From: Phormidium tanganyikae FI6-MK23
GTDB taxonomy: Bacteria; Cyanobacteriota; Cyanobacteriia; Leptolyngbyales; Leptolyngbyaceae
Assembly: GCA_019359175.1 (NCBI GenBank)
Contig: JAHHHU010000028.1
Location: 1-46,866, forward strand
Direction: 5' to 3'
DNA length: 46,866 bases
Positions 13,758-19,835 of the stretch are shown here, piece after piece (position 1 is the stretch's first letter; each line of letters opens with the position of its first letter). The notes under the pieces are model-generated. The model was not told the DNA's origin, made no database searches, and was given only the letters and a program-made list of their open reading frames with translations. The position numbers and the translations under genes were made by a program.

Positions 13758-14999
13758 ATGAGAAAGTTGATCTCAAGTTCGATCACGATTGGTTTACTCT
13801 TCTTCACAGTCAGTTGTCGATCGGGTTCTACAAATCAAGTCGAAATTACTCTAAGCGGTTGGCAAAGCAATCCAAATGAAGGCAAATTACTCGATAAAGT
13901 AATTCGAGAATTTGAGGCAAAAAATCCAACGATCAAAGTAAAGCGAGAAGTGATCAACAGTCAATATATGGACGTAATCAGAACTCGCTTGATCGGAGAA
14001 GTTGCCCCAGATGTTTTCTATTTAGAAGCATTTGAAGCCCCAACCTTAATCAAATACGGTGTCTTAGAGCCGCTGAATTCTTATATTAAACCAGACTTCA
14101 AACTGAATGATTTTGAACCCAGTCTATTGAATGCATTTAAGCAAAATGGAAACGTCTACGGAATTCCAAAAGACTTTTCAACATTGGCATTGTTTTACAA
14201 TTCAACTGCTTTGAAAAATGCGGGAATCACTCAGCCACCGAAAACATGGGATGAATTGAGGAAAGCGGCGAAGAAATTAACGATCGAGAAAAACGGCAAA
14301 GTCGAACAGTATGGAATGGGCGTTGTTCCAGAATTACCGCGCCAAACTTTTATGATCAAAGCCTTTGGCGGGAAGCTTGTCGATCGAAACAACTACGCTT
14401 CATTTGCGAGTCCCAATGGGCTTGAAGGATTACAGCTTGTAATTGATCAATATCGACGCGATCGTACTGCGGCTCAAGCTTCCGATGTTGGTGCAAACTC
14501 AAACAGTGAATCCTTTGGGCAAGGACGAGTTGCAATGACGCTCGATGGCGCTTGGGCGATTCCCTATCTCAAAGAAACCTTTCCAAACCTGAAATTCCAA
14601 ACTGCCGAAGTTCCGAAAATTAACGATCGACAAGGCACGATGCTCTATACGGTTGCTTATGTGATGAATTGGCAATCCAAACAAAAAGAAGCATCTTGGA
14701 AATTGATTCAATTTCTGACCAATGAATCCGGAATGAAGACTTGGGCAAATCAAGGAGTTGCATTACCTTCGCGTCGATCGGTGTTAGCGGGAATGAAATA
14801 TGATCGTAATCCAATTTATTCACCATTTGTTTCAGGCGCAAAATATGGAACGATTTGGCAAGCAGGTGAAACTTTACCGACAATTATGACCAGTTTTAAC
14901 AATCAATTTGTCAGCGCGTTGCTCGGACAGCAGCCCCTACCTGATGCAATGAAACGCGCTCAAGAAACTGCAAATCGAGAAATTTATCTATCGAATTAG
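13758..14999 (+). CDS. ABC sugar transporter substrate-binding lipoprotein, first gene of a three-gene operon
   Basis: This 413-residue family 1 solute-binding protein has a lipobox ending at Cys20 (TVSC). Landmarks are ITLSGWQSNP, FEAKNPTIKVKRE, APDVFYLEAFEAP, GVLEPLN, PKDFSTLALFYN, AGITQPPKTWDELRKAAKKL and the late block GRVAMTLDGAWAIPYLK. It delivers a carbohydrate to the two permeases that follow with 2-bp gaps, so the three genes are one transcript. Compared by eye with its neighbours the operon is richer in A+T. It is similar in architecture but not closely similar in sequence to the divergent protein at 12449, suggesting different sugars or partners. Confidence 0.92.
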   Translation: MRKLISSSITIGLLFFTVSCRSGSTNQVEITLSGWQSNPNEGKLLDKVIREFEAKNPTIKVKREVINSQYMDVIRTRLIGEVAPDVFYLEAFEAPTLIKYGVLEPLNSYIKPDFKLNDFEPSLLNAFKQNGNVYGIPKDFSTLALFYNSTALKNAGITQPPKTWDELRKAAKKLTIEKNGKVEQYGMGVVPELPRQTFMIKAFGGKLVDRNNYASFASPNGLEGLQLVIDQYRRDRTAAQASDVGANSNSESFGQGRVAMTLDGAWAIPYLKETFPNLKFQTAEVPKINDRQGTMLYTVAYVMNWQSKQKEASWKLIQFLTNESGMKTWANQGVALPSRRSVLAGMKYDRNPIYSPFVSGAKYGTIWQAGETLPTIMTSFNNQFVSALLGQQPLPDAMKRAQETANREIYLSN

Positions 15000-15001
15000 C
15001 A

Positions 15002-15889
15002 ATGATATTGAAACAGAAATCTAGAGATGCCTTATTCGGTTATGCCTTTATGACACCGACCATTATTATCTTAGGTGTCTTTCTGGTGTTGCCGATCGTT
15101 TGTGCGATCGTACTCGCTTTCTATCGTGTTCAACTCCTGGGCGAAGTCGATTTCCGCTTTGCTGGATTGAGAAACTTTATTCGGATTCGAGAGGATGAAC
15201 GAGTCTGGATCGCACTTACAAATACAATTCAATATGTTCTAATCGTCGTTCCAGCTCAAACGATTCTCGCGCTTGTTCTCGCATTATTATTAAACGCCAA
15301 AATTCGTGGTAGAAGCTGGTTTCGAATCGTATTCTTCTTACCGACCGTTACATCATCTGCGGTTCTCACATTGATTTTCATGTGGATTTATAACTCAAAT
15401 GGATTGTTAAATAACTTTCTAAGTTTCGTCGGGCTACCCACTTACAATTGGCTTGGCGATCCACAAGTTGCACTCAAAGGAATCATGTTGATGAATATCT
15501 GGGCAACTGCGCCATTGTTTATGGTGATTTATTTAGCAGCGCTGCAAGATATTCCAGAAAGTTTATACGAAGCCGCTTCAATCGATGGTGCAACCACTTG
15601 GGAAAAGTTTTGGTGTATTACGCTGCCATTTCTGAAACCTGTCACATTTTTTGTAATTACTATCGGGATTATGGGCACATTCCAATTGTTCGATCAATCC
15701 TACATCTTCTCAAATGGATCGGGCGGGCCTGATAACGCAACATTAACGATCGTACTTTTAATCTATCAGTATGCTTTCAACAGCTTAGATATGGGATACG
15801 CTCTTGCTCTAACGCTGATTCTTGCACTTGTAATTATGTTAGCCACTTTGATTCAACGCTATTTCTTTAGAGAAGAGAGCTTAGATTAA
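15002..15889 (+). CDS. Carbohydrate ABC transporter permease, MalF/UgpA type
   Basis: This 295-residue inner-membrane permease has six predicted helices. The N-terminal block DALFGYAFMTPTIIILGVFLVLPI is typical of the MalF/UgpA/LacF family. The EAA loop reads ESLYEAASIDGATTWEKFWCITLPFLKP, matching the EAA---G---------I-LP consensus that contacts the ATPase. It pairs with the next gene to form the channel. The start ATG lies two bases after the stop of the binding-protein gene, and the gene is followed after two bases by the partner permease. Confidence 0.93.
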   Translation: MILKQKSRDALFGYAFMTPTIIILGVFLVLPIVCAIVLAFYRVQLLGEVDFRFAGLRNFIRIREDERVWIALTNTIQYVLIVVPAQTILALVLALLLNAKIRGRSWFRIVFFLPTVTSSAVLTLIFMWIYNSNGLLNNFLSFVGLPTYNWLGDPQVALKGIMLMNIWATAPLFMVIYLAALQDIPESLYEAASIDGATTWEKFWCITLPFLKPVTFFVITIGIMGTFQLFDQSYIFSNGSGGPDNATLTIVLLIYQYAFNSLDMGYALALTLILALVIMLATLIQRYFFREESLD

Positions 15890-15891
15890 TT

Positions 15892-16728
15892 ATGCTAAAA
15901 GCGAATACATTTCGATGGTGGATTTGGTTGATGTATGGCGGGTTGATTATTTATGCGATCGTCACTTTCATTCCTTTCCTATGGGCACTATCCGCCTCAT
16001 TCAAACCACTTTCAGAAATTTCAGCGAGCGGAACTAATTTCATTCCAAAAGAATTCACGCTTGAGAACTATAGACAAATCTTCTCACAGGAACCTCTATT
16101 TGGAAGATGGTTATTCAACAGTGCGATCGTTGCCATTCTCGTCACGCTATTCAACTTGTTATTTAACTCAATGGCAGGATACGCCCTCGCGAGAATCCGA
16201 TTTCCTGGAAACCGTTTATTCTTCTTTCTAATTCTGGCTGTTCTTGTTGTTCCGGCTCAAATCACATTACTTCCCAGGTTTTTGATTCTTAAATCTCTAG
16301 GTTGGTTAAATTCCTATCAAGGATTGGTCGTTCCAACAATGGTGAACGCAACTTTCATCTTTATGATGCGGCAGTTTTTTATCAACTTCCCAAAAGAACT
16401 AGAAGAAGCCGCGCAACTCGATGGACTCAACCGCTTTGAAACCTTTTTTCAAATTGTTTTACCGTTAGCAAAACCTGCTCTTGCCGCACAAACGATTTTT
16501 ATCTTCATGTCATCCTGGAACGAATTTCTACTGCCGCTTGTCGTAATGTCAAATCCCGAAATGTTTACCTTATCGATCGGCTTAAACGCCTTCAAAGGAC
16601 AATACGTAACGTTCTGGAATTACATCATGGCAGCTTCGATGGTCTTCACCCTTCCCGCCCTCGTTATCTATGCGTTCTTCAATCGCTATTTCATTCAGGG
16701 TGTAACCTTCACCGGAGGCAAATCGTAA
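15892..16728 (+). CDS. Carbohydrate ABC transporter permease, MalG/UgpE type
   Basis: This 278-residue inner-membrane permease is the second half of the channel. It shows the MalG-family layout: an N-terminal helix, the FIPFLWALSASFKPLSEI block, FTLENYRQIF, and the EAA loop KELEEAAQLDGLNRFETFFQIVLPLAKP. It ends with the family's QRG-like FIQGVTFTGGKS. No ATP-binding gene follows; cyanobacteria and many other bacteria often encode one shared MsiK/UgpC-type ATPase elsewhere, which would explain the absence. The next gene, yebC, begins after 43 bp and probably has its own promoter. Confidence 0.92.
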   Translation: MLKANTFRWWIWLMYGGLIIYAIVTFIPFLWALSASFKPLSEISASGTNFIPKEFTLENYRQIFSQEPLFGRWLFNSAIVAILVTLFNLLFNSMAGYALARIRFPGNRLFFFLILAVLVVPAQITLLPRFLILKSLGWLNSYQGLVVPTMVNATFIFMMRQFFINFPKELEEAAQLDGLNRFETFFQIVLPLAKPALAAQTIFIFMSSWNEFLLPLVVMSNPEMFTLSIGLNAFKGQYVTFWNYIMAASMVFTLPALVIYAFFNRYFIQGVTFTGGKS

Positions 16729-16771: not shown

Positions 16772-17572
16772 ATGGCAGGACATAGTAAGTGGGCGAACAT
16801 TAAGCGCCAAAAAGCCAGAGTAGATGCCAAAAGAGCCAACGTTTTCACCAAAGTTTCGCGTGAAATCATCGTCGCGGCTCGTAATGGTGTTCCCGATCCC
16901 ACTGGCAACTTTCAACTCAGAACCGCGATCGAAAAAGCCAAAGCCGCAGGCATCCCCAACGAAAACATCGATCGCGCGATCGCCAAAGGTGCTGGCAAAC
17001 TTGGTGCTGATGCCGCACTCGAATCGATTCAATACGAAGGCTACGGAGCAGGCGGAGTCGCAGTTCTAATCGAAGCCCTTACCGATAACCGCAATCGTAC
17101 CGCCGCTGACTTACGAGAAGCCTTTAGCAAAAATGGCGGTAATTTAGGCGAAATGGGCTGCGTCGGCTGGATGTTTGAGCAGAAGGGCATCGTTGAATTG
17201 TCTTTCGCTCCACAGAAACGTGGGCGCAAAATTGAAGAAATCTCGATCGACGAAGAAAGCCTACTCGAAGCTTGTCTCGAAGGCGGAGCCGACTCCTACG
17301 AACTGATTGATACCGAAGACGGACAAGCCGCAGAAATCTTCACCGTAGTCGAAAACTTGGAAGCTCTCAGCCAAAGTTTCAAAGACCAAGGCTATACGGT
17401 TACTCAAGTCGAACTGCGCTGGATTCCTCAGAACACGATCGAAGTCACCAACCCTGACCATGTTCGATCGCTTCTCAAACTCATGGACGCACTCGATTCC
17501 CTTGATGATGTCCAAAACGCTACCGCAAACTTTGACATTGCCGAAGAATTGATGCTGGCAGCGATCGCGTAA
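16772..17572 (+). CDS. yebC: YebC/PmpR (TACO1) family protein
   Basis: This 266-residue protein has the signature N-terminus MAGHSKWANIKRQKARVDAKR and the three-domain YebC architecture, including GYGAGGVAVLIEALTDNRNRT and NGGNLGEMGCVGWMF. Members were described as DNA-binding regulators; more recent work on YebC and mitochondrial TACO1 links them to translation of difficult sequences such as proline runs. The family call is certain but which role applies here is not. The protein is slightly longer than usual because of a charged insertion around APQKRGRKIEE. A minus-strand terminator hairpin abuts its stop codon. Confidence 0.93.
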   Translation: MAGHSKWANIKRQKARVDAKRANVFTKVSREIIVAARNGVPDPTGNFQLRTAIEKAKAAGIPNENIDRAIAKGAGKLGADAALESIQYEGYGAGGVAVLIEALTDNRNRTAADLREAFSKNGGNLGEMGCVGWMFEQKGIVELSFAPQKRGRKIEEISIDEESLLEACLEGGADSYELIDTEDGQAAEIFTVVENLEALSQSFKDQGYTVTQVELRWIPQNTIEVTNPDHVRSLLKLMDALDSLDDVQNATANFDIAEELMLAAIA

Positions 17573-17660
17573 AAAAGCCCCGGCGGGTCACTGGATGCTC
17601 CTATCCAGAAACCTTCGGGGTGTCTGTGCTCTATTCAATCTCTAGGATAGAGTCAGATCC
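17571..17660 (-). ncRNA. Candidate small RNA 3' end with orphan intrinsic terminator
   Basis: Read on the minus strand, this stretch folds into two hairpins. The first is CTCTAT/ATAGAG (17652-17629) with a 12-nt loop. The second is a compound hairpin with outer arms CCCCG/CGGGG (17620-17616 with 17582-17578), an inner 6-bp stem CTGGAT/ATCCAG and an AGGAGC loop. The latter is followed directly by a run of six T (17576-17571), the hallmark of an intrinsic terminator for a minus-strand transcript. No minus-strand gene lies upstream within the spacer or the next gene, so a short noncoding RNA starting somewhere around 17690-17830 is the simplest explanation. No convincing promoter was identified and no known RNA family was assigned. 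The 5' end given here is arbitrary. Confidence 0.4.
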
Positions 17661-17836
17661 TCCTCCCCCACTCATCCAGCACGCTCATTCAATCGGGTGA
17701 ATTTCAAATCGCTAAAAGGTCGCAGAATCAGCCGATCTGCTGGATTCCACTGAGAAATTTAGCGGGCGTACTATTGAGTTAATTGCTCACATCGGAAATA
17801 TACGCGACAATAGTTGTAAAGTTTCGTATCACGGGT

Positions 17837-19096
17837 ATGCAGTTCGTTGAGCCGAGAATTTCTGAATACGACATTACGATCGTGGGTGGCGGTGTGGTTG
17901 GAACCACGTTCGCCTGCGCATTAAAGGATTCTGGCTTTCGAGTCGCACTGATCGAAGCCGAACTGAAATCACAATCTGTCTCCCGCGCTCAGGCGTATTC
18001 GATTTCACTTCTATCGAGCCAAATTTTTGAAGGGATGGGCGTGTGGCAGCAAATCCGCCCCCAAGTTGAAACTTATAAAAAAGTGCGCCTCTCAGATTCG
18101 GATTGCCCAACTACCGTTCAGTTTGCACCCCGCGATATTGGAACCGAAACACTCGGCTATGTAGCCGAACATCGAGTCTTAATCACTGCGATTCAAGACC
18201 TTCTCCAGACTTGCCCAAATGTTGAGCTATTTTGTCCGGCAAAAGTCGTGAAAACTGAATACCACTCAGACAACGCTATTTTAGATGTGATGCTGAATGG
18301 TGAAGTGCAGCAAATCCGATCGCGCTTAGTTGTCGCCGCCGATGGCTCACGATCTCCCTTACGCCAACAAGCCGGAATCAAAACGCTAGGTTGGCAATAT
18401 TGGCAAGCCTGCGTCGTCGCGACCTTAAAGCTCGAATCTCCGCACGACAACACTGCTTATGAATGGTTCTGGAAAACCGGGCCTTCTGGCATTCTCCCAC
18501 TACCCAACAATCGCTGCCGAATTGTTTGGACAGCGACCCATACGGAAGCAGAGGAACTATTAGCGTTAGACGATCGAGCTTTTATCTCAGCCTTCAAAGA
18601 ACGCTACGGCTCTCACTTCGGCACACCAGAAATCGAAGGAAAACGTTATCTATTCCCGATTCAATTGATGCACAGCCGCAAGTATGTCCTGCCGCAGTTA
18701 GCCTTAATCGGTGATGCCGCTCATAGTTGCCATCCGTTAGGCGGTCAAGGAATCAACATGGGAATCCGTGATGCGGCTGCTCTAGCTCAAGTTCTACAAG
18801 CAGCACGGGAACGGGGCGAAGACATTTCAAGCCTCAAAGTTCTGAAGCGATACGAACGTTGGCGACAATGGGAAAACCTGCTCATCCTCAGCATTACCGA
18901 CTTATTGAATCGAACATTCTCGAATCAAATTTTCCCGATCGTGCAAATCCGCCGCTTCAGCTTATGGTTTCTGCGAAATATGCAGCCGATTCGCTCGATC
19001 GTATTTCGTCTCATGTCAGGCTTAACTGGACGCGCTCCGCAACTTGCTCAGAGATCGTGCAGCTTACCGCATCTGTCTCTAAGGGTTGAGAATTAG
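17837..19096 (+). CDS. FAD-dependent monooxygenase, UbiH/Coq6 family
   Basis: This 419-residue flavoprotein has the N-terminal dinucleotide-binding motif DITIVGGGVVG (12-22). The mid-protein VAADGSRSPLRQQAG (DG motif) and the C-terminal LIGDAAHSCHPLGGQGINMGIRDA (GD motif) follow, the three marks of aromatic-ring hydroxylases of the UbiH/UbiF/Coq6 group. In proteobacteria these hydroxylate ubiquinone precursors. Cyanobacteria make plastoquinone, phylloquinone and tocopherol instead, so the substrate here is open; a prenylquinone-related hydroxylation is only an inference. ATG 17837 is chosen because it places the FAD motif near the N-terminus; an upstream in-frame start at 17783 adds 18 residues of no family similarity. 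Confidence 0.87.
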   Translation: MQFVEPRISEYDITIVGGGVVGTTFACALKDSGFRVALIEAELKSQSVSRAQAYSISLLSSQIFEGMGVWQQIRPQVETYKKVRLSDSDCPTTVQFAPRDIGTETLGYVAEHRVLITAIQDLLQTCPNVELFCPAKVVKTEYHSDNAILDVMLNGEVQQIRSRLVVAADGSRSPLRQQAGIKTLGWQYWQACVVATLKLESPHDNTAYEWFWKTGPSGILPLPNNRCRIVWTATHTEAEELLALDDRAFISAFKERYGSHFGTPEIEGKRYLFPIQLMHSRKYVLPQLALIGDAAHSCHPLGGQGINMGIRDAAALAQVLQAARERGEDISSLKVLKRYERWRQWENLLILSITDLLNRTFSNQIFPIVQIRRFSLWFLRNMQPIRSIVFRLMSGLTGRAPQLAQRSCSLPHLSLRVEN

Positions 19097-19142
19097 ACAG
19101 CGATAATGCAAAGATCATGATCGGCAAGTTGTGGATGGTGTT

Positions 19143-19835
19143 ATGCCGAAAGCGATCGTATTACTCTCTGGTGGTTTAGATTCCGCAACGACAACGGCAC
19201 AGGCGATCGTAGATGGTTACGAGCCGATCGCGCTCTCATTTCGTTACGGTCAACGGCACGATCGAGAACTCCAAGCCGCTCAGATTTTGTCGAAACATTT
19301 CAATCTGTCGCAGCATTTTGTGATTGATGTGAATTTGGCGCAGTGGGGCGGATCAGCTTTGACCGATACTGCGATTGACGTTCCCACTGAAGGTATCCAA
19401 CCCGATTTGATTCCGATTACCTATGTTCCAGGGCGGAATACGGTGTTTATCTCAATCGCGCTTTCTCTAGCAGAAGCGCAAAACGCAGAAGCAATCTATC
19501 TGGGTATCAATGCGGTAGATTATTCGGGCTACCCAGATTGCCGTCCAGAGTATCTATCAGCGTTTCAAACCCTAGCTCAGTTGTCCTCTAAAGCAGGATT
19601 AGAAGGCAAAGCACCGAAATTAGTCGCACCGCTGGTTATGGATTCTAAAACCGATATTGTGAAGCGGGCGCTCGCGCTCGGCGTTCCGATTGACAAAACC
19701 TGGTCGTGCTATCAAGGTGGTGAGTTGCCTTGTGGCGTGTGTGATTCTTGTCGAATTCGCGATCGAGCACTGATCGAAGCTGGACATCCAGAACTTGCCA
19801 CACCCCAAGGGCGAAACTTCTATCAAGAAGCTTAA
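19143..19835 (+). CDS. queC: 7-cyano-7-deazaguanine synthase (preQ0 synthase)
   Basis: This 230-residue enzyme performs the ATP-dependent conversion of 7-carboxy-7-deazaguanine to preQ0, a precursor of queuosine in tRNA. Seen are the PP-loop SGGLDS (9-14), [44 protein letters not shown], and the zinc site [15 protein letters not shown] near the C-terminus. All catalytic elements are present and the length is normal. The ATG at 19143 is preferred to the GTG at 19131. It lies 46 bp after the FAD hydroxylase on the same strand. No other que gene is in the window. Confidence 0.95.

Follow-up and report, generated by a model that had tools for sequence, protein, structure and literature searches.

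A hairpin without an obvious gene

Immediately downstream of yebC in Phormidium tanganyikae FI6-MK23, a hairpin followed by six T stands on the minus strand, where no gene would need it. What, if anything, ends there? We addressed this question in the window, a stretch of 46,866 nucleotides (contig JAHHHU010000028.1), and in related genomes. The minus-strand terminator is real by fold and by sequence (Table 1), its T-run overlapping the yebC stop codon TAA at 17570–17572. No plausible minus-strand gene lies upstream of it: nearby minus-strand open reading frames of at least 50 amino acids all fall inside yebC or the ubiH-like gene. An earlier note had read the element as the 3′ half of an unannotated small RNA (sRNA) of 100–200 nt with two hairpins. 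Its core idea, a minus-strand sRNA ending near 17571, has strong support from conservation, covariation and synteny, while the anatomy is revised to one hairpin and a predicted length of about 66 nt. A real sRNA gene very probably occupies this locus, and a stand-alone minus-strand gene with the promoter, regulator and pairing proposed below is the likely explanation of the observations as a whole. An orphan terminator can thus mark a real gene; to our knowledge, few cyanobacterial sRNA families have been defined outside model strains.

The surrounding genes are ABC-type transport genes upstream of yebC (13758–16728; identified by eye as a binding protein and two permeases) and queC downstream of ubiH (19140–19835; PF06508, 2e-70). 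A promoter-like stretch of the ubiH-like gene, TACGCGANAATAG..TGTAAAGTTTCGTATC on the plus strand at 17801–17830, is conserved: genomes G005 and G007 also keep it, and G009 keeps part of it.

Table 1. Features of the yebC–ubiH locus in window coordinates. A4 is the alignment fitted to the minus-strand structure (34 rows, 32 distinct); A2 is a MAFFT alignment of 11 rows.
Feature	Positions	Strand	Sequence or family form	Basis
Predicted small RNA, about 66 nt	17571..17636	minus		start near 17636, end near 17571
Terminator hairpin	17578..17620	minus	CCCCGAAGGTTTCTGGATAGGAGCATCCAGTGACCCGCCGGGG, then C, then the six T	fold and covariation on A4
Terminator T-run	17571..17576	minus	six T	sequence; T in 23–31 of 32 distinct rows, columns 99–105
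Unpaired 5′ tail, near-invariant	17622..17636	minus	GAATAGAGCACAGAC	unpaired in the predicted 66-nt fold
Apical stem-loop	17593..17606	minus	GGATAGGAGCATCC	alignment A2
Putative -10 promoter box	17644..17649	minus	TATCCT; family consensus TANNNT	T1, A2 and T6 invariant in 32 of 32 distinct A4 rows
Proximal operator-like half-site	17671..17678	minus	TGGATGAG	begins 29 bases upstream of the -10 box
Distal operator-like inverted repeat	17685..17700	minus	TCACCCGATTGAATGA; family TCACCCA-N2-TGGRTGA	TCRYCC in relatives
Purine run	17659..17669	minus	GGGGGAGGAGG	unconserved DNA between operator and -10 box (alignments)
yebC (YebC/TACO1 family), convergent neighbour	16772..17572	plus		Pfam PF01709, 5.8e-51; NCBIfam NF001030, 6.7e-95
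UbiH-like FAD-dependent hydroxylase, divergent from the sRNA	17837..19096	plus		NCBIfam NF005612, 5.2e-180

A cassette conserved within one family

Comparison across relatives defines a recurrent cassette: a TANNNT -10 box, 6–8 nt, a UAGAGYAYA tail, a covarying terminator hairpin with a usually G-rich loop, and a T-run. In 15 aligned copies, the minus-strand order is TCACCC..TGGRTGA, TGGRNGAA, TANNNT, 6–8 nt, G(A/T)(A/G)TAGAGYACAGA, hairpin, T-run; most of these loops read AUGGGGG, and the stem sequences vary yet still pair. The tail alone found 14 of the first 15 copies. Covariance models match the window copy at 17567–17650 (R1, E 5.5e-15; R3, E 1.5e-8), the copy being itself among those from which R1 and R3 were built.

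The cassette is present in 30 of the 42 genomes of the window's family, a count made up of 29 genomes at E ≤ 0.05 and G037 (E 0.26), which has the tail, hairpin and operator. Model R1 matched 28 of the 42 at E ≤ 1 and R2 matched 18, its weak matches including chance ones. Across 388 genomes of the class, R3 found 30 at E ≤ 0.05, of which 29 belong to the family. The thirtieth, G304 from another family, carries an unrelated repeat family without operator or G-loop, and a further match there, L135, resembles neither the sRNA nor that repeat. The G304 repeat is short, has TTGAATAGAGTACAGC and a long palindrome, occurs in several copies (L128, L130–L134), and looks MITE-like. No convincing cassette was found in the 346 other genomes of the class with R3 under strict filters; searches over 40 genomes use stricter filters, so that weak relatives outside the family can be missed.

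The exact pattern TAGAGYACAGA-N13-34-ATGGGGG occurs in 15 of the 388 class genomes, all in the window's family, and its reversed control in three, all outside it. The window's own genome, with one copy of the cassette, goes unmatched because its loop has diverged. A stricter pattern, searched in a collection of 84,980 species genomes, returned 10 stretches in nine assemblies: five from Leptolyngbya or Leptolyngbyaceae (two of them from one assembly), and others from Leptolyngbyaceae C42_A2020_001, Phormidesmis priestleyi ULC007, Myxacorys almedinensis A, Pantanalinema sp. GBBB05 and the 'Pseudanabaenaceae cyanobacterium' LEGE 13415.

At the DNA level, a search of 97 genomes matched eight genomes of the window's genus and a 34-base piece in G025. 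Two of the eight, G005 and G007, matched only through 50 bases next to ubiH; the interval between yebC and ubiH lacks the cassette in both, and no copy turned up elsewhere in them. The sRNA family is compact, has strong comparative support and a recognisable operator, and is lacking at the yebC site in two sister species, all of which makes its transcript, regulator and targets directly testable.

The hairpin covaries

The stem of the hairpin is maintained by compensatory change, which the earlier note had named as support for an RNA. On A4, whose fit to the minus-strand structure favours both the covariation score and the G-U count, pairing holds in 89.7% of cells. Changes on both sides were counted in 83 cells, whereas shuffles gave 26.8 and none of 500 reached that number; controls in which the partner was slid gave 11–19. 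Two-sided changes fall on 13 of 16 pairs, a number reached by 13 of 500 shuffles. The MAFFT alignment A2 points in the same direction, with 11 two-sided cells versus 3.9 in shuffles (0 of 500), although 50 of 500 shuffles matched its number of pair types. RNAalifold was of little help with MAFFT alignments (-2.4 kcal/mol in one, five pairs in another), because stem sequences turn over and are misaligned; counts on the named structure and the fitted alignment were used in its place.

As a 66-nt minus-strand RNA, the window copy has a folding energy of -22.8 kcal/mol (z -2.62), matched by 1 of 200 shuffles. A longer 124-nt minus-strand segment is not unusually stable (z -1.20; 28 of 200), and in it the 5′ tail is not predicted unpaired, unlike in the 66-nt fold. 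The second hairpin of the earlier note (CTCTAT / ATAGAG, 17629–17652) exists as an inverted repeat in the DNA and is absent from the 124-nt minus-strand minimum free energy fold; in relatives, these positions take in the -10 box and spacer and run into the start of the RNA. Since this repeat is not kept in loci L034 and L044 and mostly precedes the predicted start, the two-hairpin model was rejected.

What is conserved and unpaired in the RNA is instead the predicted 5′ tail GAAUAGAGCACAGAC and, more in relatives than in the window, the apical loop. The UAGAGYAYA core of the tail shows at most one exception per column among 32 distinct copies, both Y columns being scored as Y. Four loop columns are G in 26–29 of 32 distinct rows, the remainder being mostly gaps. 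In the window, the loop has diverged from the family norm GGATGGGGGCATCC to GGATAGGAGCATCC (alignment A2), and since the G-run is lost, this copy may be drifting. The purine run that the earlier note had put forward as an antisense seed is present in the window but not kept in relatives, and belongs to the putative promoter DNA upstream. A peptide read from the loop AUG was considered and rejected: in L098 and L099 it runs for three codons only, it continues differently elsewhere, and has no AUG in the window.

A putative promoter and a shared operator-like repeat

The start of the RNA is placed by the -10 box, which stands 6–8 nt before the tail. All 32 rows have TANNNT there (chance expectation 2.5% per site), in matches that are biased towards the box because models R1–R3 include its columns. 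Farther upstream, YGGRNGAR lies at -29/-30 from the -10 box in 24 of 31 rows and TCRYCC at -51 to -53 in 21 of 31; these counts leave out L120, a near-copy of L091, and L115 and L116, low-scoring R2 matches without a tail that were removed before the fold, operator and -10 counts. The resulting spaced repeat, TCACCC..TGGRTGA..TGGRTGAR at a nearly fixed distance, looks like an operator.

The operator pattern occurs in 10 of the 42 family genomes, once in each, and its reversed control gave no match. Seven of the ten matches are the sRNA promoter; the others lie in G035, G018 and G008. In G035 (L138; C180, near 7593, minus strand), the same operator precedes a different sRNA-like gene, which has another tail, the stem ACCTGGC/GCCAGGT and an apical loop GGGGGGCT that again carries a G-run, followed by A and eight T; it is possibly a sibling RNA of the same regulon. 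In G018 (L145; C17, near 232340, minus strand), it lies upstream of a reading frame beginning MNPLKQSRLIRFLQEEL, which resembles DUF2949. In G008 (L136; C237, near 922), operator and -10-like box stand without the sRNA tail. This site adjoins the threonine-dehydratase-like gene that also neighbours the sRNA in G024, G033 and G037, and may for this reason be the remnant of a lost copy. Also in G008, TGTAAAGTTTC, similar to the ubiH promoter-like stretch, stands after the operator.

A proposed mode of action

In the mechanism that we propose, RNA polymerase would start from a sigma70-type promoter at the predicted -10 box and stop at the intrinsic terminator, yielding an RNA of about 66 nt: the unpaired 5′ tail followed by one hairpin, with an apical loop that is G-rich in most relatives. 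A regulator would probably bind the spaced TGGRTGA half-sites, which lie at roughly -35 to -64, and we lean modestly towards an activator over a repressor. Like other cyanobacterial sRNAs, the RNA would pair in trans with mRNAs through its tail and perhaps its loop. Base pairing is suggested because the tail and, less strictly, the loop are kept despite sequence turnover, and we regard it, with moderate confidence, as the most likely mode.

The loop could also be read differently, as the binding site (its G-run or AGGA) of a protein that the sRNA titrates. Its conservation while the stem sequence turns over would fit, as would the tandem and extra copies of some genomes, which suit a sponge. 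Each RNA, however, offers a single loop, the loops differ in L085, L094, L095, L129 and the window, and the authors of PMC2662882 could identify no RsmA/RsmE homologues in cyanobacteria. We consider titration unlikely.

On the assumption of base pairing through the tail, its complement CTGTGCTCTAT was sought in eight genomes of the genus. It is not enriched there (9 non-self against 12 control matches in an 11-base search). In G000, the sole non-self match ends 5 nt ahead of a predicted ATG; in G001, one of three non-self matches does so at 18 nt. The two genes that follow are orthologous and encode 188 and 189 amino acids. A 16-base block is unchanged between the two genomes though much other 5′ region has diverged, and, by reading, up to 13 bp can form with the tail in G000 and up to 15 bp in G001. 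The 188-aa protein had no Pfam match above cut-off and no NCBIfam match; 2.0 Mb of sequence from G003 and G006 yielded no orthologue of its gene, and the other four genus carriers showed no exact 11-base site before this gene within the 11-base search. We treat the pair of sites as a weak lead, not as evidence for a target.

Separately, at L153 (G006) and L160 (G003), TGAATAGAGCACAGA, nearly the sRNA tail, recurs at a stop codon that a terminator-like hairpin closely follows; it is possibly a 3′-UTR-derived relative, or chance.

These pieces could be assembled into a lineage-specific regulon, a tentative picture that we think is rather less likely to be right than wrong. One Leptolyngbyaceae-like transcription factor, acting on TCACCCA-N2-TGGRTGA/TGGRTGAR, would drive the sRNA, its L138 sibling and some mRNAs (the short-ORF gene at L145 in G018), and the sRNA would repress mRNAs by pairing of its tail with sites before their start codons, for example the 188-aa gene at G000:C2 and its G001 orthologue.

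The gene is independent of yebC

Does the hairpin simply belong to yebC? We found yebC in 37 of the 42 family genomes, of which 30 became loci; with both strands scanned, plus-strand TCTGTRCTC lies beside yebC in 14 of the 30, with a variant in L032. A copy downstream of and convergent with yebC is present in 20 of the 30 carrier genomes, spanning 13 genera (G000–G004, G006, G013–G020, G022, G023, G025, G028, G029 and G035). The other 10 carry the cassette only away from yebC (G011, G012, G024, G027, G031, G032, G033, G036, G037 and G040), two of which, G033 and G036, have no yebC match at all. The cassette is therefore an independent gene.

This bears on the reading that the locus holds only a terminator, bidirectional or for readthrough, or a yebC 3′-end element with no RNA gene behind it. 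The tail-to-tail arrangement with yebC in the 20 genomes and a hairpin that is stable on both strands would agree with such an element. The T-run lies on the minus side, however, conservation extends beyond the hairpin to the 5′ tail, -10 box and operator, and both the 10 genomes just named and the five with more than one copy speak against a role tied to yebC. We regard this reading as very unlikely.

Carrier genomes have one to three copies, with more than one in G013, G014, G023, G029 and G036. Those of G036 are tandem, and the three matches in G023 look like one tandem array split by a contig end, judging from their overlapping flanks. Neighbours of the 13 copies away from yebC, named by eye, include a nucleotidyltransferase-like gene in G011, G014 and G027, a threonine-dehydratase-like gene in G024, G033 and G037, a UbiH-like gene in G029 and G036, and others elsewhere. 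Some sites are thus common to groups of genera, and the association with UbiH extends beyond the window's genus.

The cassette points along the minus strand

On A4, fitted as it is to the minus-strand structure, 34 cells are G-U and 11 A-C, the former being wobble pairs if the RNA is the minus strand. Apart from L115 and L116, 32 rows were compared by strand, and in 26 of these the sRNA strand gives the more stable fold.

The six exceptions, in which the complement folds better, include the window copy (-28.3 on the plus strand versus -22.8 kcal/mol). Plus-strand segments of 118 nt (z -4.44) and 53 nt (z -3.43) are here unusually stable, with 0 of 200 shuffles as good in either case. This better plus-strand fold, together with the diverged loop, counts against the window copy as a typical member. 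A simple consensus scan listed neither this terminator nor the minus-strand promoter here; as it found fewer terminator-like sites in the surrounding 5 kb than shuffles contain (2 versus a mean of 5.6), it neither supports nor refutes the element.

Could the element then serve the ubiH-like gene from the plus strand, as a promoter with TAGGATA for its -10 box or as a cis-regulatory RNA? The strand preference of the window fold would suit this, the box reads TANNAT on the plus strand in many copies, and the copies at G029:C32 and in G036, away from yebC, are by eye also divergent from a UbiH-like gene. Against it, the plus-strand -10 reading fails in L034, L063 and L064, whereas the minus-strand reading holds in all 32 rows; the other 11 of the 13 inspected copies away from yebC have other neighbours; and ubiH keeps its own promoter-like sequence in the cassette-lacking G005 and G007. 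Because of this evidence on direction, we reject the plus-strand reading as highly improbable and keep to transcription from the minus strand. A mobile or repetitive MITE-like element ending in a terminator, which the several positions between species might suggest, is extremely improbable given the low copy number per carrier genome, with one in the window's own, the long-term linkage to yebC, and a real repeat of this sort in G304 that looked different.

Relation to known RNAs

By its sequence, the gene has the attributes of a trans-encoded sRNA: a predicted promoter of its own, an intrinsic terminator and an intergenic position. Rfam 15 had no match in the window at the gathering threshold, and no Rfam family matched over the element in 12 loci with copies or at L138 (seven loci searched at E ≤ 5, six at E ≤ 2). 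The window element itself drew nothing beyond a chance-level match to scr4677, on the plus strand (11 bits versus 41). Searches of openly licensed PMC papers turned up no description of this RNA. We file it as a new family of a known kind, with Yfr1, IsaR1, PsrR1 and NsiR1 as the nearest in kind; the comparison with IsaR1, PsrR1 and NsiR1 is one of description.

The earlier note had pointed to the cyanobacterial Yfr families. As described in the relevant passages of PMC2662882 and PMC6778093, Yfr2 (Yfr2–5) is likewise short, with its own start site, an unpaired 5′ motif and a long hairpin whose loop is conserved; it likewise has one or a few copies per genome, and its neighbours are not conserved, which we note as a likeness. 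Its own motifs, deduced from primers given in PMC2662882, are GUGUGAGG towards the 5′ end and, around the loop, CGAAACA. Both are absent from all 32 rows of our alignment, and the Yfr2 motif pattern occurs at separate places in all 42 family genomes, with two such places in G000. The RNA described here is therefore an additional one and not Yfr2.

Nor is it Yfr1, whose unpaired motif ACUCCUCACAC is absent from all 32 rows, the RNA having one hairpin only. Yfr1 is likewise about 65 nt, stand-alone and intergenic, and lies between guaB and trxA in Synechococcus 6301 in the account of PMC6202907. It carries its motif between two stem-loops, as portrayed in PMC6778093, whereas here there is a single hairpin, often with yebC as neighbour. 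IsaR1 and PsrR1 of Synechocystis figure in PMC6202907 as trans-acting, condition-responsive sRNAs, IsaR1 being 68 nt long and PsrR1 acting at ribosome-binding regions. The likeness to these two is one of description, and only the absence of an Rfam match holds them apart.

NsiR1, described as a HetR-dependent RNA of heterocyst formers, was also compared by description, the present RNA being found only in a Leptolyngbyaceae-like family. In Nostoc, NsiR1 occurs in tandem copies, each with its own promoter, an arrangement that compares with that of G036 and, by inference, G023. Beside these sRNAs, locus L093 (1779–1907) gave a sub-threshold match to the yybP-ykoY manganese riboswitch (31.7 bits versus 45, E 1.9e-5). 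The match precedes a gene for a membrane protein whose apparent family is often linked to manganese.
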